Virus record (IMG/VR): IMGVR_UViG_3300026118_000034
Coordinates: 1-29,045 of that record
Strand: one strand, 5' to 3'
Source: a virus
Length of the DNA stretch: 29,045 nucleotides
Below the pieces are notes generated by a model that made no database searches, was not told where the DNA came from, and saw only the letters and a program-made list of their open reading frames with translations. The translations under genes and the position numbers were made by a program. Positions 3,181 through 27,909 of the stretch are shown piece after piece (position 1 is the first letter of the stretch; every line of letters starts with the position of its first letter).

Positions 3181-3182
3181 AC

Positions 3183-3212
3183 TTGACACCCCCACTTTCC
3201 AGGGGGCATGAT
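3183..3212 (+). promoter_or_regulatory. Promoter P1 with dyad spacer (copy 1 of 3)
   Basis: TTGACA (3183-3188) is a perfect -35 box; CATGAT (3207-3212) sits at an 18-base distance. The spacer is itself a dyad, CCCCCACTTTCCAGGGGG. The same TTGACACCCCCA start and G-tract before the -10 box recur at 6821 and, on the other strand, at 27909. After it a leader of about 36 bases ends in a GAACGGAGAACC purine-rich ribosome-binding region before the ATG at 3249. It likely drives the genes from 3249 to 6804. Confidence 0.8.
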
Positions 3213-3248
3213 GGCTTCACAACGGGAACAACGAGAACGGAGAACCCG

Positions 3249-3788
3249 ATGAAGCGCGTGCAGCACTGCGACGTCAAGCAGGGCTTGACGATCAAGCTGC
3301 CCAATCATGGTCCGACCGGGCGCTGGGCGACCATCGACCGGGTGATCGAGCAGCGCCCCGACACGGACAAGCAGGCCGCCTCGGCTCTCGTGGTCGTCTC
3401 CTACCTGAACGGCAGAGACTCGGGCAAGCTGCTCCAGATACTCCTGTATGCCCGCGTCGACGGCTACGAGGTCCACCCGAACAGCTCCATGATCGCGGCC
3501 CGGCGCCACCATCGCGCCGGTCGCGCCGACGTCAAGAACATCGTCCTGCGCGACTACGTGATCAAGTACTCGGCCGTGGACCGCGTCGACAGCCAGGGCG
3601 AGACCTGCGGCTACTGCCAGGCTCGCCCGGTCACCGTCAACATCTACGCGCACTGCCACGTCGCCGCCAGCAGGCGGGCCGAGGAAAACACCTGGCCCAC
3701 GTGCGACCGGTGCGCGCTGCACTCCATCGACCAGGTCGAGGACGTCGACCCGAGTTACGCCATCACCATCGAGAGGACGGGTCCCTGA
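3249..3788 (+). CDS. Zinc-ribbon-like hypothetical protein
   Basis: 179 residues, ATG with GGAGAA upstream; upstream in-frame starts lie inside the promoter and are rejected. The N-terminal 110 residues look like mixed alpha/beta with no known motif. The C-terminal part carries CGYC (C120, C123), HCH (135-137) and CDRCALH (C152, C155, H158), a spacing expected for one or two structural zinc sites. It is the first gene behind promoter P1, so probably highly and early expressed. Function unknown; a regulator or host-interaction protein would fit a first-in-operon zinc protein, but this is inference. Confidence 0.8.
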   Translation: MKRVQHCDVKQGLTIKLPNHGPTGRWATIDRVIEQRPDTDKQAASALVVVSYLNGRDSGKLLQILLYARVDGYEVHPNSSMIAARRHHRAGRADVKNIVLRDYVIKYSAVDRVDSQGETCGYCQARPVTVNIYAHCHVAASRRAEENTWPTCDRCALHSIDQVEDVDPSYAITIERTGP

Positions 3789-4252
3789 TGACACCCAAGC
3801 AGGGTCTTGACCCGGTCGACGCGCTGCCCCCGACCAGCAGGAAGGTTCTGGAGAGCGCGCCCGACCACGGCCGATACCTGGTCCCGTACACGGTCGGCCG
3901 CCTGTTCTTCGAGCGGGGATGGGGTGACCACCTGGGCAAGAGCAGCTCGCGCACCGGTAGCGGTGTACCAACCTCGCTGTTCCAGCTCAACGAACAGGGG
4001 CTCAAGGCTGTCCAGGTGGCCCGCCAGCGCTCTCGCGTCGCAGTGGAGGACGTCACCTACTCCGCAGTGCACGAGGCCACCACAGGCGTGATCGGGGACC
4101 TGCTGGAGGACTACTCGGTGGACTTCCTCATCCGCGAGGCCGAGGCACTGATCGTCCGCATCCAGGAGGCCGGACAGTCGGACGCCGGTGCGCGCGGCTA
4201 TCGGGACGCCCTGGTTGAGCACCGCGACGCGCAGGCGAGCGTGTCGGCATGA
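3788..4252 (+). CDS. Hypothetical protein
   Basis: 154 residues from ATG in a TGATG overlap with the previous gene. The segment LFFERGWGDHLGKSSSRTGS around residues 39-58 is followed by SLFQLNEQGLKAVQVARQRS, which could be a helix-turn-helix-like piece, and a C-terminal helical part (DFLIREAEALIVRIQEAGQS). No family recognised. The alternative upstream starts (from 3701) run through the preceding gene and are not needed. Confidence 0.72.
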   Translation: MTPKQGLDPVDALPPTSRKVLESAPDHGRYLVPYTVGRLFFERGWGDHLGKSSSRTGSGVPTSLFQLNEQGLKAVQVARQRSRVAVEDVTYSAVHEATTGVIGDLLEDYSVDFLIREAEALIVRIQEAGQSDAGARGYRDALVEHRDAQASVSA

Positions 4253-4500
4253 ACCTCGCGGGCTTCTTGGCGCAGCGCGCGGCGGTCGCCGTTCGCGGCA
4301 CCAAGTACCGCACCCAGGGCGTCGTCAACGGGCAGCGTCGAGACCTTCCGCCCACCACCGTTGACCGCCGGTACGCCGTCGCCGCCTGCTCGTCGATCCT
4401 GCGGGAGCTGGCCGAGATCGCGCGAGCAGCGGGCCCCTTGCCCGCACCGCTGCTCGACAAGCTCGCGCACACGGTGGAGAGCCAGGAGCCACCTAGATGA
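4249..4500 (+). CDS. Small hypothetical protein
   Basis: 83 residues, ATG overlapping the preceding stop as ATGA. The N-terminal half is basic (FLAQRAAVAVRGTKYRTQGV, NGQRRD), the C-terminal half a Leu/Ala-rich helix (ACSSILRELAEIARAAGPLP). No family recognised. Coupling to both neighbours by ATGA overlaps supports it as a real gene of the P1 operon. Confidence 0.65.
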   Translation: MNLAGFLAQRAAVAVRGTKYRTQGVVNGQRRDLPPTTVDRRYAVAACSSILRELAEIARAAGPLPAPLLDKLAHTVESQEPPR

Positions 4501-4778
4501 GCGGCGACGACATGATCGTGCTGGACGAGGTGCCAGGCATGCTCGAAGCTCTGCGCGCCGTCCAGCTCGTCGGCGGGGTCCTGCTCGACCCGCGCGCCGC
4601 TCAGCAGCTCGTCGTGGCCGCGTGGCATGCCGCCGAGCCTGCCGCGCGCGCCGCCGCCTTCGCCGACGCGGCCGACGTGCTGCACGAGTTCGCTGACAGC
4701 TCGGCCGGGCTTGGGCACTACCACGACGCGGCGACCCTGCTCGACCTGTTCAGCTACGAAATGAGGAGCCAGCAGTGA
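4497..4778 (+). CDS. Small Ala/Leu-rich helical protein
   Basis: 93 residues, ATG in an ATGA overlap with the previous gene. It is almost entirely predicted helix and acidic (GMLEALRAVQLVGGVLLDPR, AARAAAFADAADVLHEFADS). No transmembrane segment and no recognised motif. The stop overlaps the GTG of the next gene. Function unknown. Confidence 0.65.
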   Translation: MSGDDMIVLDEVPGMLEALRAVQLVGGVLLDPRAAQQLVVAAWHAAEPAARAAAFADAADVLHEFADSSAGLGHYHDAATLLDLFSYEMRSQQ

Positions 4779-5218
4779 AGACGATCATTCCGCCCAATCG
4801 TCGCATCCTGACGGTGCCATTGATCCTGGGGCACACCAACAAGGTGACTATGTCACGACGGGCGCAGGTCCTGGGCGTCCATGTCGACGCAGACGGCATC
4901 CTGACCCTGTCCGTGGCCGGGAACCCTGACGCGGACCGGTGGGACGACCGGCTTTTCGTGGTCAGGACGGACGCGCTGGGCCTGCCGCACGAACTGGGCA
5001 GGCTCGCCCTCGTTGGTGGTCCGATCATGTGCGGTGACGACGTGTGGTACGTGTTCGAGATCGACTCCCCCGAGGACGGGCCACGCCTGGGAACCAAGCG
5101 TGGCGCTGCCAGCGTCATCGTCCAGCAGAATGCGCCGGTGTCCGGCGTGAATGTGCAGGTTGGCCAGATGCTTGGCCACGCGGGCGGCTTGGCCGGAGCG
5201 GGGGTGTACGTCCAGTGA
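4775..5218 (+). CDS. Beta-rich hypothetical protein
   Basis: 147 residues; GTG start at 4775 with GAGGAG seven bases upstream. The body reads as alternating strands: RILTVPLILG, AQVLGVHVDADGILTLSV, DRLFVVRTDALGLP and DDVWYVFEID. The pattern of a short strand, a variable middle and a W-x-x-F-E ending recalls a small phage family typified by DUF7352, but I am not sure of the match. The last 30 residues are Gly/Val-rich and of low complexity. It sits in the middle of the P1 operon with a four-base overlap to the next gene. Confidence 0.68.
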   Translation: MKTIIPPNRRILTVPLILGHTNKVTMSRRAQVLGVHVDADGILTLSVAGNPDADRWDDRLFVVRTDALGLPHELGRLALVGGPIMCGDDVWYVFEIDSPEDGPRLGTKRGAASVIVQQNAPVSGVNVQVGQMLGHAGGLAGAGVYVQ

Positions 5219-5943
5219 TCCAGGACCGCGCCGAGCTGGAGCCGTTGCCCGCGATCTTCGGCAAACTGCCCACCGCTCAGGACCTGAAGCGGCAGGTTCT
5301 GGAGGCGATCGACGGCGGCTACAACCAGCTCGTGCGGGCGCGCGGCGAGGTCACCCGGCCGGAGGACACCTACGAGGTGCAGCGTCGCCTGGCGGGCGCG
5401 GCCGAAATGCTGGGCGAGTTCGAGCGGGCGTTCAAGGCAGGCCGCACGGCGATCAACTCCTACCAGAAAGAGGAGTTCGAGCTGGCCCTGGGCGGGCGCG
5501 AGGTGGCGCCGCGCGAGTCGATGAACGTGCCGGACACAGAGGGCGACCTGCGGGTTGCCGCCGACACGGCGAACAACTACAGCATCGACCTGCACGCCCT
5601 GATCGCGGCCGCCGCGAAATGCGCCTTCGACGCCCGTGACCCTGGGTATTCGCCGCTCACCGGCGGAATGCACCGGATCGACACGCAGGTCGAGAACGTC
5701 GTCAACGGGGACAGCGAGATTCCGCCCGAGGACCTCGCCGAGGTGCTCGCGGAGTACGCCATCGCCACCGCGTACGAGTTGCTGCGGTGTGGCAAGTTCG
5801 AGCCGCAGGTCACCAAGGTGCGGGCCTACGCTGACATGATCGCGCGCGCTGGAGACGACCAGCTCGCGGCGACCGTGAACAGCGCGATCATGAAGACCGT
5901 GAAGCTCAAGGGCGTCAAGGTGGAGAGGAAGGTAGCGAAGTGA
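5215..5943 (+). CDS. Conserved-looking hypothetical protein
   Basis: 242 residues from GTG at 5215 (GTGA overlap with the preceding stop; a GGAGCGGGGG purine run lies upstream). The reading frame upstream of this GTG is a shadow of the preceding gene. Residues 15-80 look like a helical hairpin (TAQDLKRQVLEAIDGGYNQL, YEVQRRLAGAAEMLGEFERA), and the centre has GREVAPRESMNVPDTEGDLR, a compact motif that looks conserved. No enzymatic signature recognised. At 242 residues it is the largest gene of the P1 operon. Function unknown. Confidence 0.75.
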   Translation: MIQDRAELEPLPAIFGKLPTAQDLKRQVLEAIDGGYNQLVRARGEVTRPEDTYEVQRRLAGAAEMLGEFERAFKAGRTAINSYQKEEFELALGGREVAPRESMNVPDTEGDLRVAADTANNYSIDLHALIAAAAKCAFDARDPGYSPLTGGMHRIDTQVENVVNGDSEIPPEDLAEVLAEYAIATAYELLRCGKFEPQVTKVRAYADMIARAGDDQLAATVNSAIMKTVKLKGVKVERKVAK

Positions 5944-6455: not shown

Positions 6456-6457
6456 CC

Positions 6458-6547: not shown

Positions 6548-6561
6548 CCGGGGAGGTCCGC

Positions 6562-6804
6562 ATGAACAAGCGTCAGGCACTGGGCGCGCTCGCCGGTGAC
6601 CTCCTGCTGAAGCTGCGGGAGATGCGGGAGCATGACGAACGGTACGGCTCGTATCACGCTCAGACCGGCACGCCGGACCACGACAGGATGATGCTGGCTC
6701 ACGAAGAGCTGGAGTGGCGGCTGATGAAGATCGAAAGTCCCACCCTGCGGCGAAAGCCCAAGTCACGGCCGCCGGACCCGAACCAGGTTGCTCTGTTCGA
6801 GTGA
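6562..6804 (+). CDS. Small charged helical protein
   Basis: 80 residues, ATG with GGGGAGG upstream. Nearly all helix in the first 60 residues (LLLKLREMREHDERYGSYHA, MMLAHEELEWRLMKIES), then a basic Pro/Lys-rich tail ending DPNQVALFE. That ending resembles a short sliding-clamp-binding (PIP-like) peptide of the form Q-x-x-L-F, which would link it to the host beta clamp; this is an inference from five residues. Last gene of the P1 operon. Confidence 0.65.
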   Translation: MNKRQALGALAGDLLLKLREMREHDERYGSYHAQTGTPDHDRMMLAHEELEWRLMKIESPTLRRKPKSRPPDPNQVALFE

Positions 6805-6806
6805 CG

Positions 6807-6849
6807 TCATGCCCCATGAGTTGACACCCCCACCACTCATGGGGCATGA
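6807..6849. repeat. 14-bp inverted repeat spanning promoter P2
   Basis: Arms TCATGCCCCATGAG (6807-6820) and its exact complement (6836-6849). The left arm ends exactly where the -35 box of P2 begins, and the right arm covers the end of the spacer and most of the -10 box. This position is expected for an operator at which a dimeric regulator would block or shape promoter access. Confidence 0.8.
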
Positions 6850-6850
6850 T
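6821..6850 (+). promoter_or_regulatory. Promoter P2 with dyad spacer (copy 2 of 3)
   Basis: TTGACA (6821-6826), 18-base spacer beginning CCCCCA and ending GGGG, then CATGAT (6845-6850). It has the same boxes and same spacer length as P1. A 42-base leader containing CGAGAGGGAGAACCGA leads to the ATG at 6893. Confidence 0.8.
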
Positions 6851-6892
6851 GGTTTTACCAGCACAGAGGGACAACCGAGAGGGAGAACCGAA

Positions 6893-7537
6893 ATGGGCTA
6901 CCAGGCACCGTACGAGCGTATCGACTGGACGATCCCCCGCACCGACGAGGAGTGGACCACGCTCGCCGCCGAGCTGCGCGACAAGGCCAGGGACAACCGG
7001 CAGTCCGCCAGCGACAGCTTCGACCGCTGCGACACCGACGGGTTCATGAGCCAGTGGGCGGACGGCCTCACCGCTCGGGCCTACGAGTGCGCTGCCTCGA
7101 TCGCGGAGGAGCACGGCTGGATCGAGGTCAAGGCGCTGTTCACCCTCGACGGGCACTTCCTCACCGCCGAGCTGCGGGCGTCCCAGAACTACGGATGGGG
7201 GATGTACTGGGACGTCCCCGCCCAGCTGGCCGCTAAGCACGGCCTGGCCAAGCGGTACGTGAACGACCCCACCGCCGGATCGCCGGTGCGCCGCGCCAAG
7301 ACGCTGGCCAAGAAGGGTGTCGCGATCGGCATCCTGCGGGTCCGCCCGTACGTGACGATGGCGGGCAGCAACGCGACGAACGTGTCCGTGGTCGCGTGGC
7401 CCGATCGTGATGCCCTGGAGAATGGTCAGTTCGAGGTCGTGCGCACCAGCTGCGGTGATCTGCTGGACACCACCAAGGACCACTCGGACAAGTGGTTCTG
7501 CTGGACGCCGGAGGACCTGGCCGCGAAGCTGGCCTGA
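6893..7537 (+). CDS. Hypothetical protein with its own promoter
   Basis: 214 residues. ATG at 6893 is chosen because GAGGGAGAACC precedes it and in-frame starts further upstream lie within the promoter. Residues 10-90 are helical and charged (DEEWTTLAAELRDKARDNRQ, LTARAYECAASIAEEHGW); the second half is a beta-rich domain (VKALFTLDGHFLTAELRASQ, ATNVSVVAWPDRDALENGQF, DKWFCWTPEDLAAKLA). No recognised family. It forms a single-gene unit between promoter P2 and the convergent terminator at 7544-7581, so it is likely made in quantity and separately regulated. No similarity seen to the other first-in-operon genes at 3249 and 27841. Confidence 0.8.
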   Translation: MGYQAPYERIDWTIPRTDEEWTTLAAELRDKARDNRQSASDSFDRCDTDGFMSQWADGLTARAYECAASIAEEHGWIEVKALFTLDGHFLTAELRASQNYGWGMYWDVPAQLAAKHGLAKRYVNDPTAGSPVRRAKTLAKKGVAIGILRVRPYVTMAGSNATNVSVVAWPDRDALENGQFEVVRTSCGDLLDTTKDHSDKWFCWTPEDLAAKLA

Positions 7538-14618: not shown

Positions 14619-17491
14619 AATCCACCCCCGACGCCCACGAACCTGTCATTGGACTGCATGCCCTGCTGCACCGGCCCGAGTTGCACCGAGCGCAGCGACC
14701 CCGCCGAGGACAGCGAGTACGCCTGGTTGCGGCTCGTGTAGTCCGCGAACTGCTTGGCGTCCACCCCAGGCTGCTGGATGTTCGTCTGCTGGAAGACGAC
14801 CGGCGCCGAGCTGGAGCTGGGCGCGCTCACGGTGCCACCAGACAGGTTGAGCGTCGTACTCACGCCGGTGCTCGTGGCGGCCAGCAGCGTCTGCCCAGCG
14901 GCCTCGGCCGCTGCGGCAATCTGCGCGGTCATCGACGCGAGGCCGATCACCAGGCCCTCTCCAGCGAACACGCCGAGCTTGGCCATCTCCTTGGACGGGG
15001 AGCTGATTCCCAGCGCGCTCTTCACGCCACCAAGAATATTCCCGCCGATTTCCTTGGCCTTGGCGATCAGGTTTCCGACCATGGAGGTGATACCGTTCAG
15101 CAGTCCGCTCAGCAAATCGCGACCGGCGTTGTAGAGTAGCGAGCCGAAGTTACCGAGCGCGCCTAGGATTCGCCCGCCCAGGCCGCTCACGAAATCGACG
15201 ATTGTTCCGATTGACGTGGAGACGATCTGCCGGATTCCAGCCCAGGCGCCGGTGACGATCGCGACCAGCGCATTCCAGGCGCCAGAGAACACGGACCCGA
15301 TGATCGAGAGGGCACCGGAGATCACGCTCTTAATCAAGTTCCAGGCGCCAGAGACGATGTTGACGATGCCCGACCAGGCACGATCCCAGTCACCGGTGAT
15401 CACGCCGATCACGACGTCGATCACGCCGGAGATGATCTGGAGGGCGGCCTTGATCACCTCGGCGATCGCGCCGAACACCGTTGTCACCACCGGCAGCAGG
15501 GCCTGAATGGTGGGCATCAGGATATTCAGCAGAATGTCGATAAGCGGCATCAGGATGGAAATGACCAGCGAAACGACCTGAACGACCTGATTGAAAACGG
15601 GAATGAGCGCGTTGACGATAGGCACCAGCGCAGCAATGACCGGTGTGAGAACCGCGCTCAGGATCTGCGCCACCGCGTTGATCACGGGCGCCAGGGCTGT
15701 TCCCAGCTGCGCGATCAGCGGGCCGACGGCGTCCAGGATCGCGGAGATGGCGGGCATCAGTGCCGCGAGCAGCTGGCCGACGAGCTGGCCGACGGTCTTG
15801 AGCAGGCCGCCGATAGCGTTGCGGAAGTCCTCCGAGCCGGTCAGCAGGGCGAGGAAGAGCGCGACGGCGATACCGACCGGTCCGGTGAGCGCGGTGAGCG
15901 CGCCTCGCACGCCACCGAACTTCGTGAGGAGGTCGTCCACGAACGGGGCCAGCGCGCTGAAGATCGGCGCGAGGTGCGAGAACACCAGGGCGATGCCGCC
16001 CGCTGCGGCGGCGAACCCAGCGAACGCGCCGGGGGAAGAGGTGATCTTCTCGATGAAGCTCGTCAGGGTCGGCAGGATGGCCGTCAGCGCCTGGGCGAAC
16101 AGCCCGGCCAGCTGGCCCACGAGCGTGCCGATCGCGGGCAGCAGGGGTGCCATGGCGCCCAGCACCTTGCCGAACGCCTGGCCCAGCGCGGTGATCCCCG
16201 GGTTGGCGTTCGTGAGAGCGCCGTTGAGTTGGGAGAACAGCGCGAGCAGGCCGGGCCCGATGCCGTCGGCGAGGTTCTTCACGATCGGCGCGAGTCCGCC
16301 ACCGATCGCCAGGGCGAGCTGCGAGATGATCGGCAGGACGTTGGTCGTCAGCGCGCCGATGCCCTCGAAGAACGACGCCAGCGCCTCCTGCCCCTCCGTG
16401 CTCTTGAGGAGGTCCACGAGGGCGCTGGAGATGCGCTCCAGGCTGTTGAGCAGTCCGGCGCCCTGCGCCTGTCCAGCGGAGAACACGGCGCCGATCGCGG
16501 TGCCGAGGTTGCCGAGGATCCGGCCGAGCTGCGAGCCGACGTCCAGGGCGCGCGAGAAGATCTCCTCCAGGCGCCCCGACGCGGCGAGTCCACTGATGAA
16601 CTGGGCGAACCGGGAGCCGACCTGGCCGACCGCCTCGCCGAGTCGGGGGAGCTGTGTCGAACCAGCGGCGACGATCCCCAGGATGGCCTGCGTGAACGGA
16701 ACAGCGGCGGTGCGCGCGGCCTCAAACCCGGACTTGATGTTGCCGGTCGTGGTGGCCACGTCCCGGAACGCGTCCTTGGTCTGGATGAACGCGAGCACTT
16801 CCTTCGCGGTCGCGTTGATCGAGGTGGCGAGCCCCTGGAACAGGCTGCGCGCCACCGGCAGGTACTGCTTGCCGAGCAGCTTCACCTGTTCACCCAGGCC
16901 AGAGAACAGGCGTTCCTGGACGCCGAGCTGAAGCTTGTCAAACTCGGGCTTGAGGCTGTTCACAGACCGCGCGAAGTCGCGGGCGCTCGGGCTCAGGCGC
17001 TTCAGGGCCTCGTCGAACGCGGCCCCGTCGCCCTCGGCGATCGCCTTGAACGCCTCGCTCATGCCCTTGAGGCCAAGCTGAACCGTGAAAGTAACCGCCT
17101 TCACGGCGGCCAGCGCAGCAGGCAGGATGCCTACTGCGGCACCGGCTTGGGCGGCGGCTCCCACGAGCGCGATCAGGCCAGCGCTCAGACTCGACACGGC
17201 CGTGAGGGCGCCACCGGCCGCCGCGCCCATCAGCAGCAGCCTGGAGCCGGACAGCACCGCGTTGCCTAGGCTCGCGGCCAAGCCCTTCACCGACTGGAAC
17301 GAGGCCTTGAACAGGTCCTTGACCCGCTTGCTCGTCCGGTCAGCGTCGTCCTCGATGCCCTTGGTGGAGTCCTTGCCGAGCCCCTTGGACGCTTCGCTGA
17401 TCGCCGACTGGAGCACCAGGCGGATGTTGGCCGCCAGTCCGGCGCCCTCGATCTTGAGGCGGACGCCAGCCGTAGCAATGATCTTCGCCAA
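14615..17491 (-). CDS. Tape measure protein
   Basis: 958 residues. TTG start at 17491 is chosen because GAGAGGGG lies six bases upstream and the sequence from there (LAKIIATAGVRLKIEGAGLA) is a typical start; the frame further upstream is a shadow of the chaperone gene. The protein is long, Ala/Leu/Gly-rich, with many hydrophobic helices, Trp-containing repeats (WDRAWSGIVNIVSGAWNLIK and relatives) and the common motif GISSPSKEMAKLGVFAGEGL near the end. It sets tail length and later leaves through the tube. At about 1.5 angstrom per residue it would give a tail near 140 nm (inference from the known rule). It follows the chaperone pair directly. Confidence 0.96.
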   Translation of the reverse strand: MAKIIATAGVRLKIEGAGLAANIRLVLQSAISEASKGLGKDSTKGIEDDADRTSKRVKDLFKASFQSVKGLAASLGNAVLSGSRLLLMGAAAGGALTAVSSLSAGLIALVGAAAQAGAAVGILPAALAAVKAVTFTVQLGLKGMSEAFKAIAEGDGAAFDEALKRLSPSARDFARSVNSLKPEFDKLQLGVQERLFSGLGEQVKLLGKQYLPVARSLFQGLATSINATAKEVLAFIQTKDAFRDVATTTGNIKSGFEAARTAAVPFTQAILGIVAAGSTQLPRLGEAVGQVGSRFAQFISGLAASGRLEEIFSRALDVGSQLGRILGNLGTAIGAVFSAGQAQGAGLLNSLERISSALVDLLKSTEGQEALASFFEGIGALTTNVLPIISQLALAIGGGLAPIVKNLADGIGPGLLALFSQLNGALTNANPGITALGQAFGKVLGAMAPLLPAIGTLVGQLAGLFAQALTAILPTLTSFIEKITSSPGAFAGFAAAAGGIALVFSHLAPIFSALAPFVDDLLTKFGGVRGALTALTGPVGIAVALFLALLTGSEDFRNAIGGLLKTVGQLVGQLLAALMPAISAILDAVGPLIAQLGTALAPVINAVAQILSAVLTPVIAALVPIVNALIPVFNQVVQVVSLVISILMPLIDILLNILMPTIQALLPVVTTVFGAIAEVIKAALQIISGVIDVVIGVITGDWDRAWSGIVNIVSGAWNLIKSVISGALSIIGSVFSGAWNALVAIVTGAWAGIRQIVSTSIGTIVDFVSGLGGRILGALGNFGSLLYNAGRDLLSGLLNGITSMVGNLIAKAKEIGGNILGGVKSALGISSPSKEMAKLGVFAGEGLVIGLASMTAQIAAAAEAAGQTLLAATSTGVSTTLNLSGGTVSAPSSSSAPVVFQQTNIQQPGVDAKQFADYTSRNQAYSLSSAGSLRSVQLGPVQQGMQSNDRFVGVGGGL

Positions 17492-19902: not shown

Positions 19903-21482
19903 AGAGGCCTCCTGGGCATCAGTCGAGGTACATCAGGCGACCATACCCCCGCCCTTTGGGGGCGGGCATCAGGGTTGACCGCGCGCAGCCACAAGTCCAC
20001 CGACGTCAGGCCGGTGCCGCCCTCCTTCAGGATGTCGAGACTGTCCGCGATGTCGACGGTCACGCCCTGCCGGGTCACGCTCGTCAGCCTCTTGGGCAGC
20101 CTGCACTTGCCGATCCCGTAGAAGTCGCGAGCCAGCTCGACGCCCAGCGTCACCGCCGCCTGCACGCCGCCCAGCGGTGGTGGTTCGCCGTGCCGGTAGC
20201 TGACCACCGTCGTGCCAGAGCACAGATCCCAGCTCTTCCCGTCGAGGCGCTCCAGCCAGCCAGACCGGGTCAAGCCGTAACTCGTGAACGGGTCGCCGTT
20301 GATCGTCACAGAGGTGACCTCGATGACGGTGTCTCGCGGCAGCTTCACCGCGTACACGCCCTCCACGTGGTTCCACACCCCGAGGTAGGCCGCGATCGGA
20401 TAGCCGTTGATCCACTGCGCCTGGAGCCAGCAGCCGCAGTCTCCCCACGAATCGTGGTACGGCCACGAGCCGGTGCCGGGTCGGGGTGGCGTCGAACGGA
20501 GGTAGGCCTCCTCCAGGCACCCCACCCCGTACCAGCGTCGCCCAGACAGCATCCAGAGGATCTCGGAAGCGATCATGAGCACATGCGCCCACTGTGAGCC
20601 AGTGAGGGCCAGCTCGGCGCGAACCTGCTCAGGGACGTCGGCCTCCGTCGCCCAAGCTGCGCACAGGACGGCGCTGGACGGCGACGACGCGGGGTTCTCC
20701 CCGGACACGTTCATGCTGATGCTGGTGGATGCCACGACGGCGCCTTGTCCTCGGTGGGAGCCTGCGACGCTGGCACCCACCAGGACAGGGACATTCGCCG
20801 CGCCTGCTCCGACCTTCGCCCCTGCCGGTGAGCCAGCGACGGGAACGGGTGCGGATGCAGAACCAGAGGCGATCTTGCTGCCGGTCACGGACATGCCGAC
20901 GGGCACGGGAAGATCCACCGAGCCGCTCGCGACCTCGGTAGGGTCCACGTCGGTGAGGATCGGCGTGATCCAGAAGTTTGCGGCGGCACCAGAGCCGTTC
21001 GCGGGGAACGAGCGCGTAGTGCCGCCGATCAGGACGCCCTGCTCACCGTCGGGGGCAAGTGCCTGACTCGGCGCCACGAGGCGACCGGCGGTGATGCCAG
21101 CGGATCCGGCACCGCTCGACCAGTAGTTCGAGGTGAACGCATAGGCGCCGTTCGGGAGGTGGTGGCCGGTGCGGTACGAGGCCAGCACGCCCACGGAGAT
21201 GGGCACAGGGGTGGGCAGAAGAACGGTTTGGTAGACGCCTGTGCCGGACAGCGTGTACGTCGCCACACTGCCAGGAACGGCGACCCCGGCCTGGTCCCAC
21301 GTCTCCGCGCTCACCGGCCCCGTGACGGCGCCGTCAGCCCGCCAGAACTCGTAGCCCTTGAGCCAGAGGGGAGCGCCCGCCGTGGTGTGCCACGACAGGC
21401 CGAGGGTGTACTGATTGCCGGGGTCCGACGCCGATGCACCAGGCCCGGCGCCGAACGCTCCCGACAGGCTGTAGTCGGTCAC
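19899..21482 (-). CDS. Head-tail adaptor fused to DUF4082-like domain and 20-residue repeats
   Basis: 527 residues, one open frame. Residues about 25-180 follow the DUF4082 pattern: YTLGLSWHTTAGAPLWLKGY, then PVPISVGVLASYRTGHHLPN, GAYAFTSNYW, GVLIGG and SFPANGSGAAANFW. Residues 184-263 are four 20-residue repeats (units begin VASGSVDLPV, IASGSASAPV, VGAGAANVPV, RGQGAVVAST). Residues 271-527 look like the head-tail adaptor: CAAWATEADVPEQVRAELAL, ASEILWMLSGRRWYGVGC and a following domain with many Trp and Gly. The adaptor sits under the portal; the N-terminal half would be an external, perhaps carbohydrate-binding decoration. Such a long N-terminal extension is uncommon. Individual domain calls are from memory. 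Confidence 0.78.
   Translation of the reverse strand: MTDYSLSGAFGAGPGASASDPGNQYTLGLSWHTTAGAPLWLKGYEFWRADGAVTGPVSAETWDQAGVAVPGSVATYTLSGTGVYQTVLLPTPVPISVGVLASYRTGHHLPNGAYAFTSNYWSSGAGSAGITAGRLVAPSQALAPDGEQGVLIGGTTRSFPANGSGAAANFWITPILTDVDPTEVASGSVDLPVPVGMSVTGSKIASGSASAPVPVAGSPAGAKVGAGAANVPVLVGASVAGSHRGQGAVVASTSISMNVSGENPASSPSSAVLCAAWATEADVPEQVRAELALTGSQWAHVLMIASEILWMLSGRRWYGVGCLEEAYLRSTPPRPGTGSWPYHDSWGDCGCWLQAQWINGYPIAAYLGVWNHVEGVYAVKLPRDTVIEVTSVTINGDPFTSYGLTRSGWLERLDGKSWDLCSGTTVVSYRHGEPPPLGGVQAAVTLGVELARDFYGIGKCRLPKRLTSVTRQGVTVDIADSLDILKEGGTGLTSVDLWLRAVNPDARPQRAGVWSPDVPRLMPRRPL
20694..20933 (-). repeat. Four tandem 20-residue repeats inside the adaptor fusion
   Basis: Residues 184-203, 204-223, 224-243 and 244-263 of the adaptor fusion align without gaps; the shared pattern is x-A/G-x-G-A/S, hydrophobic, then P-V-x-V or similar, then G-S near the end. 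The fourth unit is the most diverged. They lie between the DUF4082-like domain and the adaptor domain, so they probably form a spacer or small beta stalk. Confidence 0.7.
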
Positions 21483-21914: not shown

Positions 21915-22898
21915 TTAGGCGGCCACCGTGACGTAGCCGCGCGACAGGTCGGGGATGCTCGCCACGCGGACGAACTGCCACACGCGGTCGGCCGCACCAG
22001 CGACGCTCACGGGCCAGTCGTCCTCGGGGCCAGCCCCCCAGTTCGAGTTCTGCGCGCTCGTCCCCTGGAAAACCGGCTGGAGCGCGTTCTCCGCGTTCAG
22101 TACGAAGTTGTCCGCGAGACGCAGCGTCGCGCGGGGAACCGTCCAGTGGATGTAAGGCAGATCCGGGTTCGACGCGCCATCGAGGATGTCCCGGGTCCAG
22201 AACTCCAGCCCGATGCCGTACGGGTTCGGCGTGATTCCCAGCTCGGGCGCCTTGAAGCCGAGCGCCAGAGCGGACACCCCGGGCGTGGTCGTGGTGACGG
22301 CGACCGCCGGGGCGGCACCGCCGGTCAGGCCGGTGCCGGACGCGGTCATCTGCGTCACGTTGCCCAGGCTGGAGGCGAACGCGACCGTCCAGGGCGTGCC
22401 GGGACCGGGGCCACCACCAACGGTCACGTCGCCCGGCGCCAGGTTGCTCAGCGCCTCCAGGGCCGACTGCACGGCGGCGGCCGCCGCGTTGTACGCGATG
22501 CCTGCGGTCGTCTGGCCGTTGTAGGTCAGCGTGAACGTGCCGCCGGTTGGCGTGCCGGTGATCGTCACGGTCTGCACCTCGCCGACAGCGGCACGGTTGA
22601 TCGTGTCACCGCCGATCGCGAACTGGAACACGTTCGGGTCCGGCTGGCACACCGTGAGCGCGTCGACCACGCCGTTGGTGAGCGTGTCGGGCGCCTTGTA
22701 CGACATGCACAGGTTCCCGGCGCCGTTGCGCTGGGTGATCTGCGCGCCGTCCTCGTAGGTCAAGCCGAGGCCGACCGTGGTCAGCGCCTCGGTCGTGTAG
22801 CAGGTCGTGGTACCGACCAGCGGGGCGCCGGTGGAGTCCAGCTTGGTCAGTCGCATGCCGAGAGCGAAGAGGCTCCCGCTTCCGTCCCATCCGGGCAT
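21915..22898 (-). CDS. Major tail protein-like protein with inserted domain
   Basis: 327 residues. ATG at 22898 is preceded by GAGGAGG; the much longer frame upstream is a shadow of the neighbour. The N-terminus (GWDGSGSLFALGMRLTKLDS, CYTTEALTTVGLGLTYEDGA) and C-terminus (LPYIHWTVPRATLRLADNFV, NSNWGAGPEDDWPVSVAGAA, RVWQFVRVASIPDLSRGYVT) match the style of siphophage major tail tube proteins. Between them residues 106-207 are a compact beta-rich domain that also occurs in the next gene at 79% identity. It would build the tail tube and carry the extra domain on the outside. The position before the adaptor is unusual; a capsid-associated role is the alternative. Confidence 0.75.
   Translation of the reverse strand: MPGWDGSGSLFALGMRLTKLDSTGAPLVGTTTCYTTEALTTVGLGLTYEDGAQITQRNGAGNLCMSYKAPDTLTNGVVDALTVCQPDPNVFQFAIGGDTINRAAVGEVQTVTITGTPTGGTFTLTYNGQTTAGIAYNAAAAAVQSALEALSNLAPGDVTVGGGPGPGTPWTVAFASSLGNVTQMTASGTGLTGGAAPAVAVTTTTPGVSALALGFKAPELGITPNPYGIGLEFWTRDILDGASNPDLPYIHWTVPRATLRLADNFVLNAENALQPVFQGTSAQNSNWGAGPEDDWPVSVAGAADRVWQFVRVASIPDLSRGYVTVAA
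22278..22583 (-). repeat. Shared 102-residue domain, copy in major tail protein-like gene
   Basis: Encodes residues 106-207, from EVQTVTITGTPTGGTFTLTY to GLTGGAAPAVAVTTTTPG. Aligned without gaps to the copy at 23597-23902, 81 of 102 residues are identical. Beta-strand-rich with one Ala-rich helix (YNAAAAAVQSALEALSNL), as in immunoglobulin-like or similar small decoration domains found in phage structural proteins. Confidence 0.85.
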
Positions 22899-22912: not shown

Positions 22913-24073
22913 TCAGGTGGTGGCCGGGAGATCCACGGCCACGCCGTGCAGGACGCACGGGTCGAAGGTGGCCGCGTAAAACCGGTCCGCAGTCGTGTAG
23001 ATCTGGTTGTGCCGCTGGTCGACGAACGAGTTGACCGTGATGCGCGAGGTGCGCACCTCGACCGGTCCCGTCGCGTACATCCACAGGGCGTCGGCCTGCA
23101 CGGCGTCGTTCGGGTCGGTGCCGGGGTATCCGGCATCGGCGATGACGCGGGCGCCGGTCTTGGTGAACAGGCCAGTGCCGTTCTGCACGATCGAGTCGAG
23201 CATCAGCGGCACCAGGGTGATGGGCATGTGAATCCACACGTCCATGCCGAGCGAGCCGAGCTGACCACGTGCGGCCTGCTCCAGCGCGCCCAGCGCATGC
23301 AGTGGCTCATGCTTGCCCGCCACCACCTGCACACCGAGTCCGGCCGCCAGGCGGGCGTTGACCTGCCCGCTCGCCTCGGGCGTGTCGTACGGGTTCAGGT
23401 CGCTGTGCTCGCCGGTCCACAGCTCGCGGGCGATCGTCCACGAGGTGACGGCCTCCGCCTGGCGGCGAACGCGCGCCTCGTCCTCGGTCATGTCGCTATT
23501 GAGCGCCGGGCACGAGTCCTCGACCCGCAGCACGGGCGGCGAGTAGTAGACGGTGCCGGACGGGCCGACGCCGTAGGCCGCGCCGAACAGGTTGTAACCG
23601 GTCGTGGTGGTGGCAACGGCCACCGCCGGGGCGGTGCCGCCAGTCAGGCCAGCGGCGGACGCGGTCATCTGGACGACGTTGCCCATGCCAGCGCGGAACG
23701 TGACCACGTACGGCGTCGCGGGACCAGGGCCGCCAGTCACGGTCACATCGCCCGGGACCAGATTGCTCAGGTTCTCCAGAGCGGTCTGAACGGCCGCCGC
23801 CGCCGCGTTGTACGCGATGCCAGCGGTCGTCTGGCCCGAGTACGTGAGGGTGAACGTGCCGCCCGTCGGGTCGCCGGTGATCGTGACCGTCTGCACCTCG
23901 GAGATGTCTCCGCTCGCGCAGGCGTTGAACGAGCGCACCGACGTGCAGCGCTCGGGGCGCCACGCCATGCCCTGCGTCCAACGGTCATCGCCACTGGCGG
24001 GCGTGAGGGCCCATGCCGCCAGGCTGGACCGGGACGATGCTGCCTGGACCGGCTGAATCGGGGCGAACAACAT
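22913..24073 (-). CDS. Virion protein of unknown role with inserted domain
   Basis: 386 residues; ATG with GGAGGTGG upstream. Residues 58-159 carry the same 102-residue domain as the next gene. The remainder (VEDSCPALNSDMTEDEARVR, ALGALEQAARGQLGSLGMDV, VIADAGYPGTDPNDAV, LWMYATGPVEVRTSRITVNS, RFYAATFDPCVLHGVAV) has a pattern I have seen in structural proteins of actinophages encoded next to the capsid gene, with the A-D-A-G-Y-P-G-T and Y-A-T-G-P-V motifs conserved. The gene is directly downstream of the major capsid gene. Capsid decoration, vertex or tail-related roles are all possible; the family has no role I can state. Confidence 0.75.
   Translation of the reverse strand: MLFAPIQPVQAASSRSSLAAWALTPASGDDRWTQGMAWRPERCTSVRSFNACASGDISEVQTVTITGDPTGGTFTLTYSGQTTAGIAYNAAAAAVQTALENLSNLVPGDVTVTGGPGPATPYVVTFRAGMGNVVQMTASAAGLTGGTAPAVAVATTTTGYNLFGAAYGVGPSGTVYYSPPVLRVEDSCPALNSDMTEDEARVRRQAEAVTSWTIARELWTGEHSDLNPYDTPEASGQVNARLAAGLGVQVVAGKHEPLHALGALEQAARGQLGSLGMDVWIHMPITLVPLMLDSIVQNGTGLFTKTGARVIADAGYPGTDPNDAVQADALWMYATGPVEVRTSRITVNSFVDQRHNQIYTTADRFYAATFDPCVLHGVAVDLPATT
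23597..23902 (-). repeat. Shared 102-residue domain, copy in unknown virion protein
   Basis: Encodes residues 58-159, from EVQTVTITGDPTGGTFTLTY to GLTGGTAPAVAVATTTTG. The matching copy is at 22278-22583. Differences are concentrated in the stretch around PGPATPYVVTFRAGMGNV, while both ends are nearly identical. Confidence 0.85.
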
Positions 24074-24147
24074 TCACCCCACCTCCATTCGTGGAGCCAG
24101 GCCGCGCCGGGCGTCGGGCGGACCGGCGCGGCCTGGAGCTGGTCAGG

Positions 24148-25872
24148 TCAGTTAAGGATCGCGTTCAGGTCGCGGGTGGCGGCGCTCTGGCCGGTCACCT
24201 GGAGCTGGAACACGAGGTGCACGGACTCGATGCCACGGTGGGCAGCGGTCGCGAACTCCTCCCGGAACGTCTGGAAGCGGTTGACAGCGTTGAGCGCGCT
24301 GTCACGGACCAGGCCCATGTTCAGCTCGCCGCCGTCGAGGTACTTCCAGTCGCCCTCGCGGAAGATCAGCGTTGACACGGTGCCGATGTAGTTCGGCACC
24401 TCGGTGCCAGCGGCGGCCGTGGTGTAGGCCTGCGCCGGGACCACGATGTCCGGGGTCGGCTGCGTGATGTCGGCGGGGTCGATGCCGTCGAGGTGGAACG
24501 TCGGGTTGACGTTGCGACGACGGAACCAGTCCATGATCATCTCGTCCGCCACGGCCAGCGTGTCGAGGCCATCGCCGACCATCTGGCGGGCGACATCCAT
24601 GCGCAGGATGTCCTTCAGCCACAGCGGCAGGATCTGGCGCAGCGGCGCGTTGTCGCTCAGGCGGTGCACCGAGCGGTAGTAGGCGATGAACTTGTCCAGC
24701 GACACGAAGAAGTCGCGGGCCGCGCCGATCACGCGAGGCGTGTACAGCGGCTTGGACGCGTTGGTCAGCTGGGTCAGCAGCTTGTTCTCCGCGAAGCGCG
24801 CGAACGCCACGTCACCGGCCTGGATAACCGCGTCCATCAGCTCGGGGTCGAACTGCGTGGACATGTTCGAGAAGGTGAGGCAGTGGTAGACCGCCTCGAC
24901 GGTCGCCGTGACCGGGTCCGGGCAGTCGACCTCAAGGCACGACTTGGTGGGCAGCGGCGTGGTCTCGTCCATCGCCGGAGTCCAGTTGCCGATGCCGCCG
25001 GTCTGGGCCACGCCGTCGATCGCCGGGCGGTAGGTGATGCCGCCACGGTCCGCGCCGATCGGCGCGAGGGCGTCGCGCACCGGGCGGTCGGTGTCGCCGA
25101 TCACCGGGATGTCGTAGAGCGGGGTCACCGGGCCGCAGATACCGGCGGCGGTGAGCGCGTTCTCCTCGGCGGACCGGGAGCGCACCTCGTCCTCGACGCG
25201 GGACATCACCCGATTGACGGTGTAGCCGCTGTCCTTGCGGGAGACGAAGCGACCGGCGGCCTTGTAGCCATCCGCCCACTTGACGTTGACGAGGGTCGTC
25301 TTCGCGTACGGGTTGTGGATGGCCGCCTGGTTGGCGAACGCCGTGGCGATCTGCTCGCGGGCAACCTCGGGGTCCCTGTCGAGCGTGAGGCCGTTCTGGC
25401 CGGTCACGTTCGCGTTGATCTCCAGCGACTGGAACTCGCCCCGGTTGCGACGAGTGGTCAGGCCTGCCCCACCAAGAGGGCGGCGAGCGGAAGCGGTCAC
25501 GGTGTCGCCCCCTTCGGGCTTCTCGTCCTCCGGCTCGACGGCCGGGGGCTCTTCGGTGGCCAGCGTGGCGGGCGCTGCGGGCTGCTCGGGGATCTCCACC
25601 TCGGGCTGCTCCGGCTGCGCGGGCGGCTCGGGCTGCGCGGCCAGCTCGCCGATCATCGACAGATTGGCGGCGTACTCCGCGTTGACGCGGGCGCGCTCGT
25701 CCATCTGTCCACGGATGGCGGAGGCGGCATCCGCGAGGGCCTTCACCTGCGGTGCGGTCGTGGCGGTGGCGGGGCCCGTGAACGCTGCGGCCTGACCTGC
25801 GATCTCCGAGAGAGCGTCAGTCAGTTCCTGGTCCGTTGCCTCCGCCAGCCGATTCAGAATCTCCTCGTACAC
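24148..25872 (-). CDS. Major capsid protein with N-terminal scaffold-like domain
   Basis: 574 residues. GTG at 25872 is chosen because ACGGAG lies upstream and the sequence from there (VYEEILNRLAEATDQELTDA) is a typical start; the longer frame upstream is rejected. Residues 1-78 form charged helices (scaffold-like delta domain), 79-121 a Pro/Glu-rich linker, and from about 145 on the capsid fold: DPEVAREQIATAFANQAAIH, GYTVNRVMSRVEDEVRSRSA, LTFSNMSTQFDPELMDAVIQ, LLPLWLKDILRMDVARQM-type stretch (QILPLWLKDILRMDVARQMV), and VSTLIFREGDWKYLDGGELN. The ending VHLVFQLQVTGQSAATRDLN is typical. It forms the head shell, with the N-terminal part helping assembly and perhaps cut off later. Confidence 0.9.
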   Translation of the reverse strand: MYEEILNRLAEATDQELTDALSEIAGQAAAFTGPATATTAPQVKALADAASAIRGQMDERARVNAEYAANLSMIGELAAQPEPPAQPEQPEVEIPEQPAAPATLATEEPPAVEPEDEKPEGGDTVTASARRPLGGAGLTTRRNRGEFQSLEINANVTGQNGLTLDRDPEVAREQIATAFANQAAIHNPYAKTTLVNVKWADGYKAAGRFVSRKDSGYTVNRVMSRVEDEVRSRSAEENALTAAGICGPVTPLYDIPVIGDTDRPVRDALAPIGADRGGITYRPAIDGVAQTGGIGNWTPAMDETTPLPTKSCLEVDCPDPVTATVEAVYHCLTFSNMSTQFDPELMDAVIQAGDVAFARFAENKLLTQLTNASKPLYTPRVIGAARDFFVSLDKFIAYYRSVHRLSDNAPLRQILPLWLKDILRMDVARQMVGDGLDTLAVADEMIMDWFRRRNVNPTFHLDGIDPADITQPTPDIVVPAQAYTTAAAGTEVPNYIGTVSTLIFREGDWKYLDGGELNMGLVRDSALNAVNRFQTFREEFATAAHRGIESVHLVFQLQVTGQSAATRDLNAILN

Positions 25873-26030
25873 GAGGTTTCTCCGTTTCGTGTTGGACGGC
25901 TTGCACGGGGCTTGTCCACTCCAGCTAGGCCGGACCGCTCGGAGATCAGCTAGGCCGCTCCGTGCGGGGTCGTCCCCAACGTCGCGAAGCGTAGGCGCCG
26001 AGTTGCGCATGACGCCCGCGAGTTGCGCAC
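25873..26030 (-). promoter_or_regulatory. Capsid gene leader with two pairs of direct repeats
   Basis: The region between the terminator at 26031-26066 and the capsid start must hold the start of the leftward virion operon or be read through. It contains CGAGTTGCGCA twice (25999-26009 and 26019-26029, 20 bases apart) and CAGCTAGGCCG twice (25922-25932 and 25947-25957, 25 bases apart). No good TTGACA/TATAAT pair is visible on the minus strand. The repeats are candidate sites for a late activator or a phage sigma factor. Confidence 0.5.
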
Positions 26031-26066
26031 AAAAAGATCCCCCGCGCCACGTGGGTACGGGGGATC
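26031..26066 (-). terminator. Rho-independent terminator of the accessory operon
   Basis: Read on the minus strand: stem GATCCCCCG / CGGGGGATC (26066-26058 and 26044-26036) with a 13-base loop, followed directly by TTTTT (26035-26031). A classic leftward terminator that separates the accessory operon from the capsid operon. Confidence 0.88.
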
Positions 26067-26096
26067 AGGAGGTCCGCATCTCCTTGGCGGAGGCTA

Positions 26097-26657
26097 TCAG
26101 ACCTGCTCGTCCGGGAGGTCTTCGAGGGAGGGCATCACGTCCACGGTCTGCGTGCGGAAGTCGCAGACCCGCTCCGAGACGTGCACGGCGAGCATGGCCG
26201 CGTACTGCGCACGGGCGACGGACCACTGGTCCGGTTCGACCTTGCGCGTGTACGCGGTGTACGCCTTCACCGCGTCCTGGTGCTGCCCGGTGACGCCGGA
26301 GGCGAAGAGCGTGTTCACCAGGCGAATCTGCTCGCTGTGGTCGACGGTGCATTCGTCGTCGCCGCAGGTGGTGGTGATGTCGAACGGAGGGAACGGGATC
26401 CCCTGCTGGGACATCCGCTCGATCCACGTGGACAGCTCCCACACGTACGCGTGGCAGGCGTCCTCATTGCCCAGCGAGGTGATCCTCTTCGCCCACTCGT
26501 AGGAGGCGGCCAGGATGAGGCGGTGCTCGACCTGGTCATGAATGGGGACGGCCATGATTGCGAACGTCTCGACGGCGGCGTTGATCAGGCCGTGCGTCAT
26601 CTCGGCCGCCGCCTCGCTCACGGGGAACGGGTTGGTGGGTCGTACGTAGTCAGACAT
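26097..26657 (-). CDS. Hypothetical protein, last gene of accessory operon
   Basis: 186 residues; ATG with AGAGG upstream. Predicted helical, soluble: FPVSEAAAEMTHGLINAAVE, HRLILAASYEWAKRITSLGN, HAYVWELSTWIERMSQQGIP, then an acidic Cys-containing loop (TTTCGDDECTVDHSEQIRLV) and a further helical segment. The Cys/His cluster C-x4-C-x3-H may bind metal. No family recognised. It lies 30 bases upstream of the terminator at 26066, so it is expressed with the three genes above, not with the capsid operon. Confidence 0.75.
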   Translation of the reverse strand: MSDYVRPTNPFPVSEAAAEMTHGLINAAVETFAIMAVPIHDQVEHRLILAASYEWAKRITSLGNEDACHAYVWELSTWIERMSQQGIPFPPFDITTTCGDDECTVDHSEQIRLVNTLFASGVTGQHQDAVKAYTAYTRKVEPDQWSVARAQYAAMLAVHVSERVCDFRTQTVDVMPSLEDLPDEQV

Positions 26658-26679
26658 GCGGACCTCTCTGGTTTCGTTT

Positions 26680-27159
26680 CTACGGGTTCGCGGAGCCAGG
26701 GCACATCATCTTGGTGCCGCTGGTGGTCTCCACACTCCACGCCTCCGACCGCGCGCACTTCAGGCCGTCCCAAGAGACGGTCATGTCGACTGGACCGGGA
26801 GGGGCGACCGGCGACGCGACCGGCGGGGTGGTCGGTTCCGGTGTCGGCCATTCGTTCGGCGGCACCGGCGTGGTCTGGGTCGGCGGCTGCGGTGTCGTGG
26901 TCGACGTCTCAGGGTCGTCGGCGAGCACCACGGCGGGCGCCTGGGCAGCGGGGGGCGACGCGGCCTGAGTGGCACTCGTCGGCGGCGTGGCCAGCTGGAC
27001 GGGCGCCTCCAGCGACGCCGTGGCGGACGTGGACGAGGAGACCACCGGCGCGGTCTTCAGGTCGGCGCCGGGCTCATCACCGGCGGCGAACGCGGCGACG
27101 GTGGCCGCGAGCAAGGGAACGATGATCGCCCCCGCGAGCAGGGGCAGGGACTTCTTCAC
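26680..27159 (-). CDS. Secreted Thr/Pro-rich protein with C-terminal disulfide module
   Basis: 159 residues. GTG start with AGGAGT upstream. The N-terminus MKKSLPLLAGAIIVPLLAAT then VAAFAAGDEP is a clear Sec-type signal peptide with a likely cut after AFA; no lipobox Cys. Residues 30-120 are a long Ser/Thr/Pro/Ala linker (STTTPQPPTQTTPVPP, PEPTTPPVASPVAPP), like glycosylated or wall-spanning linkers. A short C-terminal module (126-159) has WDGLKC...SVETTSGTKMMC (C135 and C153), probably one disulfide. Role unknown; a phage-encoded exported protein beside the virion genes could act in superinfection exclusion or host surface change, which is inference. Confidence 0.8.
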   Translation of the reverse strand: MKKSLPLLAGAIIVPLLAATVAAFAAGDEPGADLKTAPVVSSSTSATASLEAPVQLATPPTSATQAASPPAAQAPAVVLADDPETSTTTPQPPTQTTPVPPNEWPTPEPTTPPVASPVAPPGPVDMTVSWDGLKCARSEAWSVETTSGTKMMCPGSANP

Positions 27160-27169
27160 GATTTGACTC

Positions 27170-27469
27170 CTAACGGGCTCGGTTGTGCGCAACGTTCTTC
27201 GCGCACTGCTTGTCGTGCAGCAAGTGAAAGCGGATTCCCCGCTCCAGCATGCCAGCACGCTGATTGCGGGTCTTGACCTGACCGGCGTGGTACTTCTCGC
27301 CGACCTTCGACAGCGCCCACTGGTCACTCGGGTACTCGTTCGTGAGGTCCTCCTCGACCTCGACCAGGATGGTGACCGGCTGCCCCTTGCTCATGCGAGC
27401 GGTGACGGCCGGGACCACCATCCCCTGACACTTCTGGCAGACCTTGACGTCCGCCTCGGGGACCTGCAT
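27170..27469 (-). CDS. Small zinc-finger-like protein
   Basis: 99 residues; ATG with GAGGAGG upstream. CQKC (C11, C14) at the N-terminus pairs with H82, H85 and C89 near the C-terminus (RFHLLHDKQC), a spacing seen in small actinophage proteins in which a CxxC opens and a H-F-x-x-C-like motif closes one zinc site around a short beta sheet. The middle has a strand pair (QPVTILVEVEEDLTNEYPSD). Function unknown, possibly regulatory or nucleic-acid binding. Second gene of the P3 operon, ten bases before the secreted protein. Confidence 0.72.
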   Translation of the reverse strand: MQVPEADVKVCQKCQGMVVPAVTARMSKGQPVTILVEVEEDLTNEYPSDQWALSKVGEKYHAGQVKTRNQRAGMLERGIRFHLLHDKQCAKNVAHNRAR

Positions 27470-27481
27470 CCCCGCCTCCTC

Positions 27482-27841
27482 TCAGTTGTGGGTCAGGCAA
27501 CGCCCTTCCTCGAACACGATGCCGCCGCAGCTCGCCCCCCAGGTCTCCACCGCCGTGGCTCCACACTCCGTCTCGCCGTCTGGGGTGGTGACAGCCACGG
27601 TGCACACCTTGCGGCCGTAGGGCGCCTGGCGGACTGGGAACACCGGTGTGCGGGCGGCGGCGAACTGGGCGTCGATCAGCAGGGCCCGCCCATGCAGCTC
27701 CTCGACGATTGCATTCATCCCCGAGGTCATGAGTTCGATGTCCTGCCCCTTGGCGAGCGCGGCGCCGAAAAGCTGGAACGTGTCGGTCAGGTACGCGTCG
27801 GTGTCGGTGGCGAATTCCCAGCTGCTGTCGTAGCGGCCCAT
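27482..27841 (-). CDS. Hypothetical Cys-containing protein, first gene of accessory operon
   Basis: 119 residues; ATG at 27841 with GAGGGAGAACC upstream, the same leader as at 6893. The longer frame runs into the promoter. Residues 1-65 are helical (WEFATDTDAYLTDTFQLFGA, GMNAIVEELHGRALLIDAQF); residues 75-119 form a small domain with four Cys (80, 93, 105, 115) and a final His (CTVAVTTPDGETECGATAVE, CGGIVF, CLTHN), a possible zinc site. Directly behind promoter P3. No family recognised. Confidence 0.75.
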   Translation of the reverse strand: MGRYDSSWEFATDTDAYLTDTFQLFGAALAKGQDIELMTSGMNAIVEELHGRALLIDAQFAAARTPVFPVRQAPYGRKVCTVAVTTPDGETECGATAVETWGASCGGIVFEEGRCLTHN

Positions 27842-27880
27842 CTCGGTTCTCCCTCTCGGTGGTCCCTGCTGATGTCGAGA

Positions 27881-27909
27881 ACAGTACCCCGAATCCATGG
27901 GGGTGTCAA
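27881..27909 (-). promoter_or_regulatory. Promoter P3 with dyad spacer (copy 3 of 3)
   Basis: On the minus strand: TTGACA (27909-27904), then a 17-base spacer beginning CCCCCA and ending GGGG, then TACTGT (27886-27881). The first 12 bases, TTGACACCCCCA, are identical to P1 and P2, and the leader has CACCGAGAGGGAGAACCGAG, almost the same as at P2. It drives the four leftward accessory genes. Confidence 0.8.

Follow-up and report, generated by a model that had tools for sequence, protein, structure and literature searches.

A promoter cassette before many short genes of an uncultivated phage family and its candidate tandem ribbon-helix-helix regulator

The IMG/VR virus record IMGVR_UViG_3300026118_000034, analyzed here in full as a window of 29,045 bases, carries closely similar promoter-like cassettes in front of three distant genes on both strands, which raises the question of whether one regulator governs them. 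A first-pass annotation of this DNA had placed the cassettes at 3183 (+), 6821 (+), and 27909 (-), with -10 boxes CATGAT, CATGAT, and TACTGT, and all three are present there with those boxes. The cassettes, their leaders, and the genes behind them are as follows (nt, nucleotides; aa, amino acids).

3183..3212, plus strand: promoter cassette 1, with -35 TTGACA at 3183-3188, an 18-nt spacer with a C-tract/G-tract dyad, and -10 CATGAT at 3207-3212.
3213..3248, plus strand: leader 1, with boxes GGGAACAACG and GGAGAACC.
3249..3788, plus strand: gene under cassette 1, a 179-aa CxxC...CxxC protein of family 28.
6821..6850, plus strand: promoter cassette 2, with -35 TTGACA at 6821-6826, an 18-nt spacer with the dyad, and -10 CATGAT at 6845-6850.
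6851..6892, plus strand: leader 2, GGGACAACC...GGGAGAACC.
6893..7537, plus strand: gene under cassette 2, 214 aa, matching phrog_5855 (E=1.2e-19).
27881..27909, minus strand: promoter cassette 3, with -35 TTGACA at 27909-27904, a 17-nt spacer with the dyad, and -10 TACTGT at 27886-27881.
27842..27880, minus strand: leader 3, GGGACCACC...GGGAGAACC.
27482..27841, minus strand: gene under cassette 3, 119 aa, without a family match.

The exact 12-mer TTGACACCCCCA has three copies in the record, at the three sites and nowhere else, and the pattern of 12-mer, spacer, and -10 box matched in 0 of 100 shuffles. A looser scan (TTGACA with one mismatch, a spacer of 16-19 nt with a C-rich start and a G-rich end, YANNNT) returns exactly the same three sites, compared with 0.1 per shuffled window. 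All are intergenic, with the start codons at 3249, 6893, and 27841 lying 36, 42, and 39 nt from the -10 box. The shared box said to precede the ATG is GGAGAACC, which occurs in every leader (3239-3246, 6882-6889, 27852-27845), and the likeness between leaders 2 and 3 goes beyond what had been claimed, with 94% identity over 32 nt that extends into the start codon.

The favored answer, drawn from sequence comparison and given a probability of about 0.75, is that the three sites are members of one phage regulon of sigma-70 promoters whose spacer dyad is repressed by an autoregulated tandem ribbon-helix-helix (RHH) protein. In this model, the phage-encoded, single-chain RHH protein would bind the dyad and block RNA polymerase, so that cassette promoters would fire early from the host polymerase and shut down as the protein builds up. 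Its own gene, with the same kind of operator and usually a weaker -35 box, would be negatively autoregulated. At sites with the end of an upstream gene nearby, the promoter would be insulated from read-through by a terminator hairpin fused to it. Dyad binding, repression in preference to activation, early timing, and termination are thus the inferred parts of the model.

The cassette is widespread in a family of uncultivated phages with genomes of 55-62 kb and 63-70% GC. A scan of IMG/VR with TTGACACCCCCAN{6,9}GGGG returned 31 stretches, five of which (six sites) fall in one record, G001, a close relative of the window phage with 95-98% identity over most aligned blocks; its counterpart of cassette 1, at 15850-, is nearly identical. 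G001 has 15 copies of TTGACACCCCC and 0 of the reversed control. Additional scans added other large contigs, most of which have about 20-30 gene families in common, including capsid, tail, and ssb. A search of related phages, as the first-pass annotation had proposed, finds, in the wider scan, 17 cassettes in G001 and 7-15 in most of the other large relatives (G004 15, G010 14, G005 13, G014 9, G006 7), against 0.05-0.45 in each shuffled genome. Among 192 cassettes the spacer is 18 nt in 104, 17 nt in 86, and 19 nt in 2, and the leader boxes GGAACRAC (GGGAACAACG-type) and GGAGAACC/GGAAGGACC occur in 145/192 and 148/192. Rather than being scattered at random inside genes, the sites are nearly all intergenic, with the -10 box a median of 39 nt ahead of the start codon.

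With TTGACA, 17/18-nt spacing, and YANNNT, the cassette reads as a host-type sigma-70 promoter. It does not appear to be borrowed from a host, since the promoter part has 77 matches in 84,980 bacterial and archaeal genomes and 0 of these carry the leader. Megablast of the window and three relatives gave no useful isolate match, a tblastn search with the RHH protein found no isolate carrying it, and the capsid protein has only distant matches to actinophages. Window 6792-6889 resembles G001 35199-35292 over the entire cassette plus hairpin at 88% identity with an unrelated gene behind it in G001, and this likeness may be a sign that cassettes get copied between genes.

The spacer dyad differs by lineage but is common within a genome, and both arms change together. 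The window and G001 have CCCCCA..TGGGG, whereas G004/G010/G024/G027 have CCCAC..GTGGG and G023/G026/G037/G039 have C6-N5-G6. Four RHH-bearing phages, G032, G057, G060, and G061, lack the TTGACACCC motif and carry the dyad of their own RHH gene at promoters with a different -35 box (TAGACA, TTGTGT). At these other promoters, CACCCC..GGGGTG stands behind TAGACA in G032 and C6-N5-G6 behind TTGTGT in G057; in G049 and G061, the dyad that recurs beyond the RHH gene is CCCCGC-N7-GCGGGG. The -35 box can therefore change independently of the dyad, which persists. In the RHH-less G055 and G059, dyads are at shuffle level.

These classes bear on a quite improbable alternative, in which the C- and G-tracts would be intrinsic to the promoter and act through spacer shape, the host polymerase, or a host factor, with no phage regulator. 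In its favor, the C-tract is anchored to the -35 box and the G-tract to the -10 box in many sites, and isolated promoters of similar sequence turn up across diverse bacteria. Its difficulty lies in arms that covary by lineage (CCCAC/GTGGG, CCCCGC/GCGGGG, CACCCC/GGGGTG) while the -35 box changes independently, and in the absence of the leader from all 77 bacterial matches. The idea of a plain promoter feature whose gap follows spacer length is further weakened by G029/G031, where a C6-N3-G6 unit is rigid while its distance to the -35 box varies, and by the other arms or -35 boxes of G032/G049/G061.

C-tract/G-tract operators are typical of the CsoR/RcnR family, which invites the thought of a host metal/copper-type repressor on the spacer. 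This is hardly credible, as a host factor would leave unexplained both why dyads differ by lineage and why one precedes the RHH gene. A CsoR/RcnR regulator encoded by the phage was likewise rejected, with PF02583 found in 0/12 of these phages.

The RHH proteins form a core family of about 113-212 aa, with 132 aa in G001 and 117 aa in G029. By inspection, a C/G dyad with TANNNT lies directly upstream of the RHH gene in 22/22 cases, and an automatic scan of all families gives 20/21. In further relatives inspected, the RHH gene also has a C/G dyad, of other sequence in some and weak in G047. A poor -35 box is common at the RHH gene. Among families in at least 14 genomes, only RHH and family 28 (13/15), which includes the gene at window site 1, have this upstream dyad; the count is 0/20 or so for most families of capsid, tail, ssb, and replication genes, and the dyad occurs at 17% of all genes and 2% of random positions. 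Its placement before nearly every RHH gene and not before structural genes also speaks against an intrinsic promoter feature.

Held-out relatives gathered by capsid protein, without use of the motif, gave 26 records, 15 of which (G032 among them) carry the RHH gene by profile search. Cassettes of the TTGACACCC type occur in 7/15 RHH-bearing records versus 1/11 RHH-less ones, the latter with a lone site. In a permutation test, a position matrix built for each genome from its other sites scored the RHH-gene site, which fits its own genome better than permuted ones (0/20,000 permutations; mean rank 5.6/24 versus 12.5 expected, with shared ancestry uncorrected).

The regulator candidate is predicted with high confidence to hold two RHH units in a single chain. 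The AlphaFold2 model (predicted local distance difference test score 89) places strands (E) and helices (H) at E9-16 H17-29 H34-47 / E74-81 H83-95 H100-114. Its best PDB matches are F relaxosome chains (E=0.007, prob 1.0, template-modelling (TM) score about 0.6, with a high global root-mean-square deviation), which are taken as TraY on the strength of PMC12117103 and not of the chain label. AvtR is the second-best structural match (TM 0.43-0.60) and is not significant in a PDB profile search (E=0.42). Pfam NikA-like models match 3/21 members below cut-off (best E 0.013), and phrog_6506, an 'Arc-like repressor', matches two members weakly (best E 0.002). In the second predicted DNA-contacting strand, R-x-R-F-R/S or K-F-R-F-G occurs with long G-tracts and P-L-R-F-T with GTGGG arms, a suggestive sign that strand residues track dyad class. 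As the motif shifts between lineages and the regulator gene keeps a matching site, the family would offer a natural series for studying RHH-operator co-evolution. A sub-lineage has an RHH protein with an extra N-terminal domain (L266:11206-11808 in G035, also L377 and L378), and one family member matches sigma-70 region 4 and helix-turn-helix models.

The same RHH protein could instead act on the dyad as an activator or timing switch, for example by reshaping the spacer. TraY, the nearest solved fold, is a DNA-bending and activating accessory protein, and the poor -35 box of the RHH gene could mean a need for help. Such a role is unlikely, because an activator would be superfluous at cassettes whose -35 is consensus, whose spacing is 17/18 nt, and whose -10 is good; polymerase is normally kept out by a protein that sits between the two boxes, and SvtR, an archaeal-virus RHH regulator, acts as a repressor of its own gene (PMC5569661). 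Early shut-off by a repressor, the most likely role of the RHH protein, is favored by an operator placed within good promoters, between the -35 and -10 boxes, by probable autoregulation, and by the lack of integrase or resolvase in 15 records. An immunity repressor was set aside because integrase and resolvase (PF00589, PF00239) occur in 0/15 relatives' records, which are possibly fragments, and the phage is probably lytic.

Some observations weigh against a regulon under RHH repression. In G001-type sites, the C-tract is anchored to the -35 box and the G-tract to the -10 box, so the half-site distance follows the 17/18-nt spacer, which is hard for a rigid dimer. Several RHH-bearing phages have few other sites, such as G049 with 3, about shuffle level. 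The fit between the RHH-gene site and the regulon of its own genome is poor in G001 (rank 21/24) and likewise in G014, G006, and G053. Finally, the RHH gene lies outside the window. The first-pass proposal of one regulator that would act on the spacer dyad gains strong comparative support from the genome-wide spread, the lineage-specific dyads, and the dyad before the RHH gene. RHH repression would give this phage family, which lacks a close cultured member, a defined regulator and operator.

The gene order of G001 suggests where the regulator gene of the window phage lies. Window 2-3279 is collinear with G001 19025-15754 at 95.6% identity and includes one operon:

2..3128, plus strand: left-end operon ending in ssb (2628-3128), collinear with G001.

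The gene immediately upstream of this operon in G001, on the same strand, is the RHH gene (20128-20526, minus). Because the left end of the window falls within the first long gene of the operon, the RHH gene is expected about 1 kb past that end, and the operon, including ssb, may share the RHH protein's own promoter.

Two of the window sites also have hairpins that the first-pass annotation overlooked.

3136..3180, plus strand: hairpin after the ssb stop codon, with 17-bp perfect arms at 3136-3152 / 3164-3180 and a fold of -33.8 kcal/mol.
6807..6849, plus strand: inverted repeat at site 2, with 14-bp arms at 6807-6820 / 6836-6849 and a 15-nt loop that holds TTGACA.

The first is a probable transcription terminator, separate from promoter 1, and has a compensated stem change in its G001 ortholog (GATCCCC/GGGGATC versus GACTCCC/GGGAGTC). 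The second has a 3' arm that spans the G-tract and most of the -10 box, and it too has a compensated stem change in the G001 ortholog (12033-). The spacer C/G dyad that the annotation described is present at site 2, but part of the symmetry there belongs to this terminator-type hairpin. Site 3, with a divergent neighbor upstream, has neither a fused nor a separate hairpin.

Across the family, arms of at least 9 bp around the -35 box occur at 32/49 sites where a co-directional gene stops 12-45 nt upstream of it, compared with 1/143 other sites and 0/24 divergent sites (Fisher 7e-23), and at 0/45 sites that overlap or touch the upstream stop codon. One example is the site-specific repeat at G004 12214, with 18-bp arms flanking the -35 box and a loop of 12. 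This distribution fits a terminator of the upstream gene and not an operator, and the fused hairpin would be a terminator joined to the promoter with the -35 box in its loop, a compact architecture. T-runs are often missing from terminators of high-GC actinobacteria; a terminator scan that looks for a T-run after the stem gave no site near 3180 or 6850. A hairpin over the -35 box and spacer at 32/49 close co-directional sites, window site 2 included, could suggest that the symmetry is terminator hairpins only and that there is no operator. This is very improbable, as the C-tract/G-tract dyad is present at all sites, with or without a hairpin, and persists at the divergent and stop-codon-touching ones, window site 3 included. 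Directly behind the G005 cassette at 14738 (L063:14738-14840, +) and ahead of the next gene lies a long GC-rich hairpin, GGTAGGTCCCGGCG...CGCCGGGACCTACC, possibly a leader RNA or attenuator.

The 198 genes behind cassettes fall into 115 families, with 64 singletons. They are short (median 113 aa versus 141 aa for all genes), and 7% of them belong to families of at least 10 genomes, compared with 38% of other genes. Among 87 representatives, 3 have a Pfam match and at most 17 a PHROGs match, nearly all to unnamed families. A tentative extension of the regulon model is that the cassette, with its fused terminator, RHH operator, and standard leader, may be an insulated plug-in expression module through which the whole family gains and swaps early accessory genes; the orphan families behind it, which number over 100, may then serve largely in anti-defense or host takeover, and each dyad would predict its own regulon.

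Three cassettes have no protein gene behind them for 1-2 kb and are followed by stretches that contain degenerate tRNA-like elements as well as tRNA genes (Glu, Val), which may place tRNA arrays in the same regulon:

L070:8926-10507 (G014 30307-), minus strand: tRNA-type stretch.
L079:5958-7259 (G010 7259-), minus strand: tRNA-type stretch.
L076:18862-19828 (G004), minus strand: tRNA-type stretch.

A search of the literature for TTGACACCC in phages, or for many early promoters under an RHH protein, gave no precedent from bacterial phages in the library searched. The start-associated sequences known from cluster K mycobacteriophages are likewise repeated and have a conserved portion immediately ahead of start codons; they differ from the cassette in sequence and are not known to have a cognate RHH regulator. 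A close parallel is in archaeal rudi- and lipothrixviruses, in which a virus-specific promoter and regulatory sequence is common to many small, poorly conserved early genes (Nat Commun 2024, PMC11065993). In every virus, this sequence is also found at the gene of the regulator Aca8 (aca8, 'motif prevalence 1'; PMC11065993), much as the RHH gene is preceded by its dyad. Both systems thus have one shared motif for many small genes and for the regulator's own gene. Unlike the phages here, the Aca8 system has archaeal TATA/BRE (B recognition element) promoters, a predicted winged helix-turn-helix regulator, and no described fused terminator hairpin; its early expression is measured, whereas that of the phage family is inferred. 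The short orphan cassette genes resemble the early anti-defense set of the archaeal viruses, and by this analogy, shared regulatory sequences may be usable for finding anti-defense genes (PMC11065993).

The first-pass annotation had pointed to actinophage stoperators. In cluster A mycobacteriophages, these are 13-bp asymmetric sites of the lysogeny repressor that stop elongation, with up to about 30 per genome, a motif that diverges between relatives, and one site proposed to be autoregulatory (PMC6550527, PMC9283540). The likeness holds for many sites under one proposed regulator, a lineage-diverging motif, and a putative autoregulatory site. It fails for the sites themselves, which here show symmetry and are placed within promoters ahead of start codons, and the candidate regulator is RHH rather than helix-turn-helix.

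AvtR and SvtR are likewise small RHH regulators of viruses. The former combines two RHH motifs in a single chain (PMC5569661), as predicted here, and the latter represses its own gene, as the candidate would. Both differ in having few known viral targets, AT-rich operators, archaeal hosts, and no significant sequence similarity. F-plasmid TraY is likewise a single-chain tandem RHH protein (PMC12117103) and the best structural match to the candidate, but it is a relaxosome component at oriT with about 10% sequence identity.

Rfam and tRNA scans of the window gave no match. The divergent intergenic region 27842-27987 separates the site-3 gene from a plus-strand gene at 27988; the leader of this plus-strand gene contains CGGAGAACC as well, though without a recognizable cassette. 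CTGCGACGATAGCAG in this region is kept in G001. Window 22279-22578 and 23598-23897 form a 300-nt direct repeat with 80% identity in adjoining structural genes, probably a duplicated domain.

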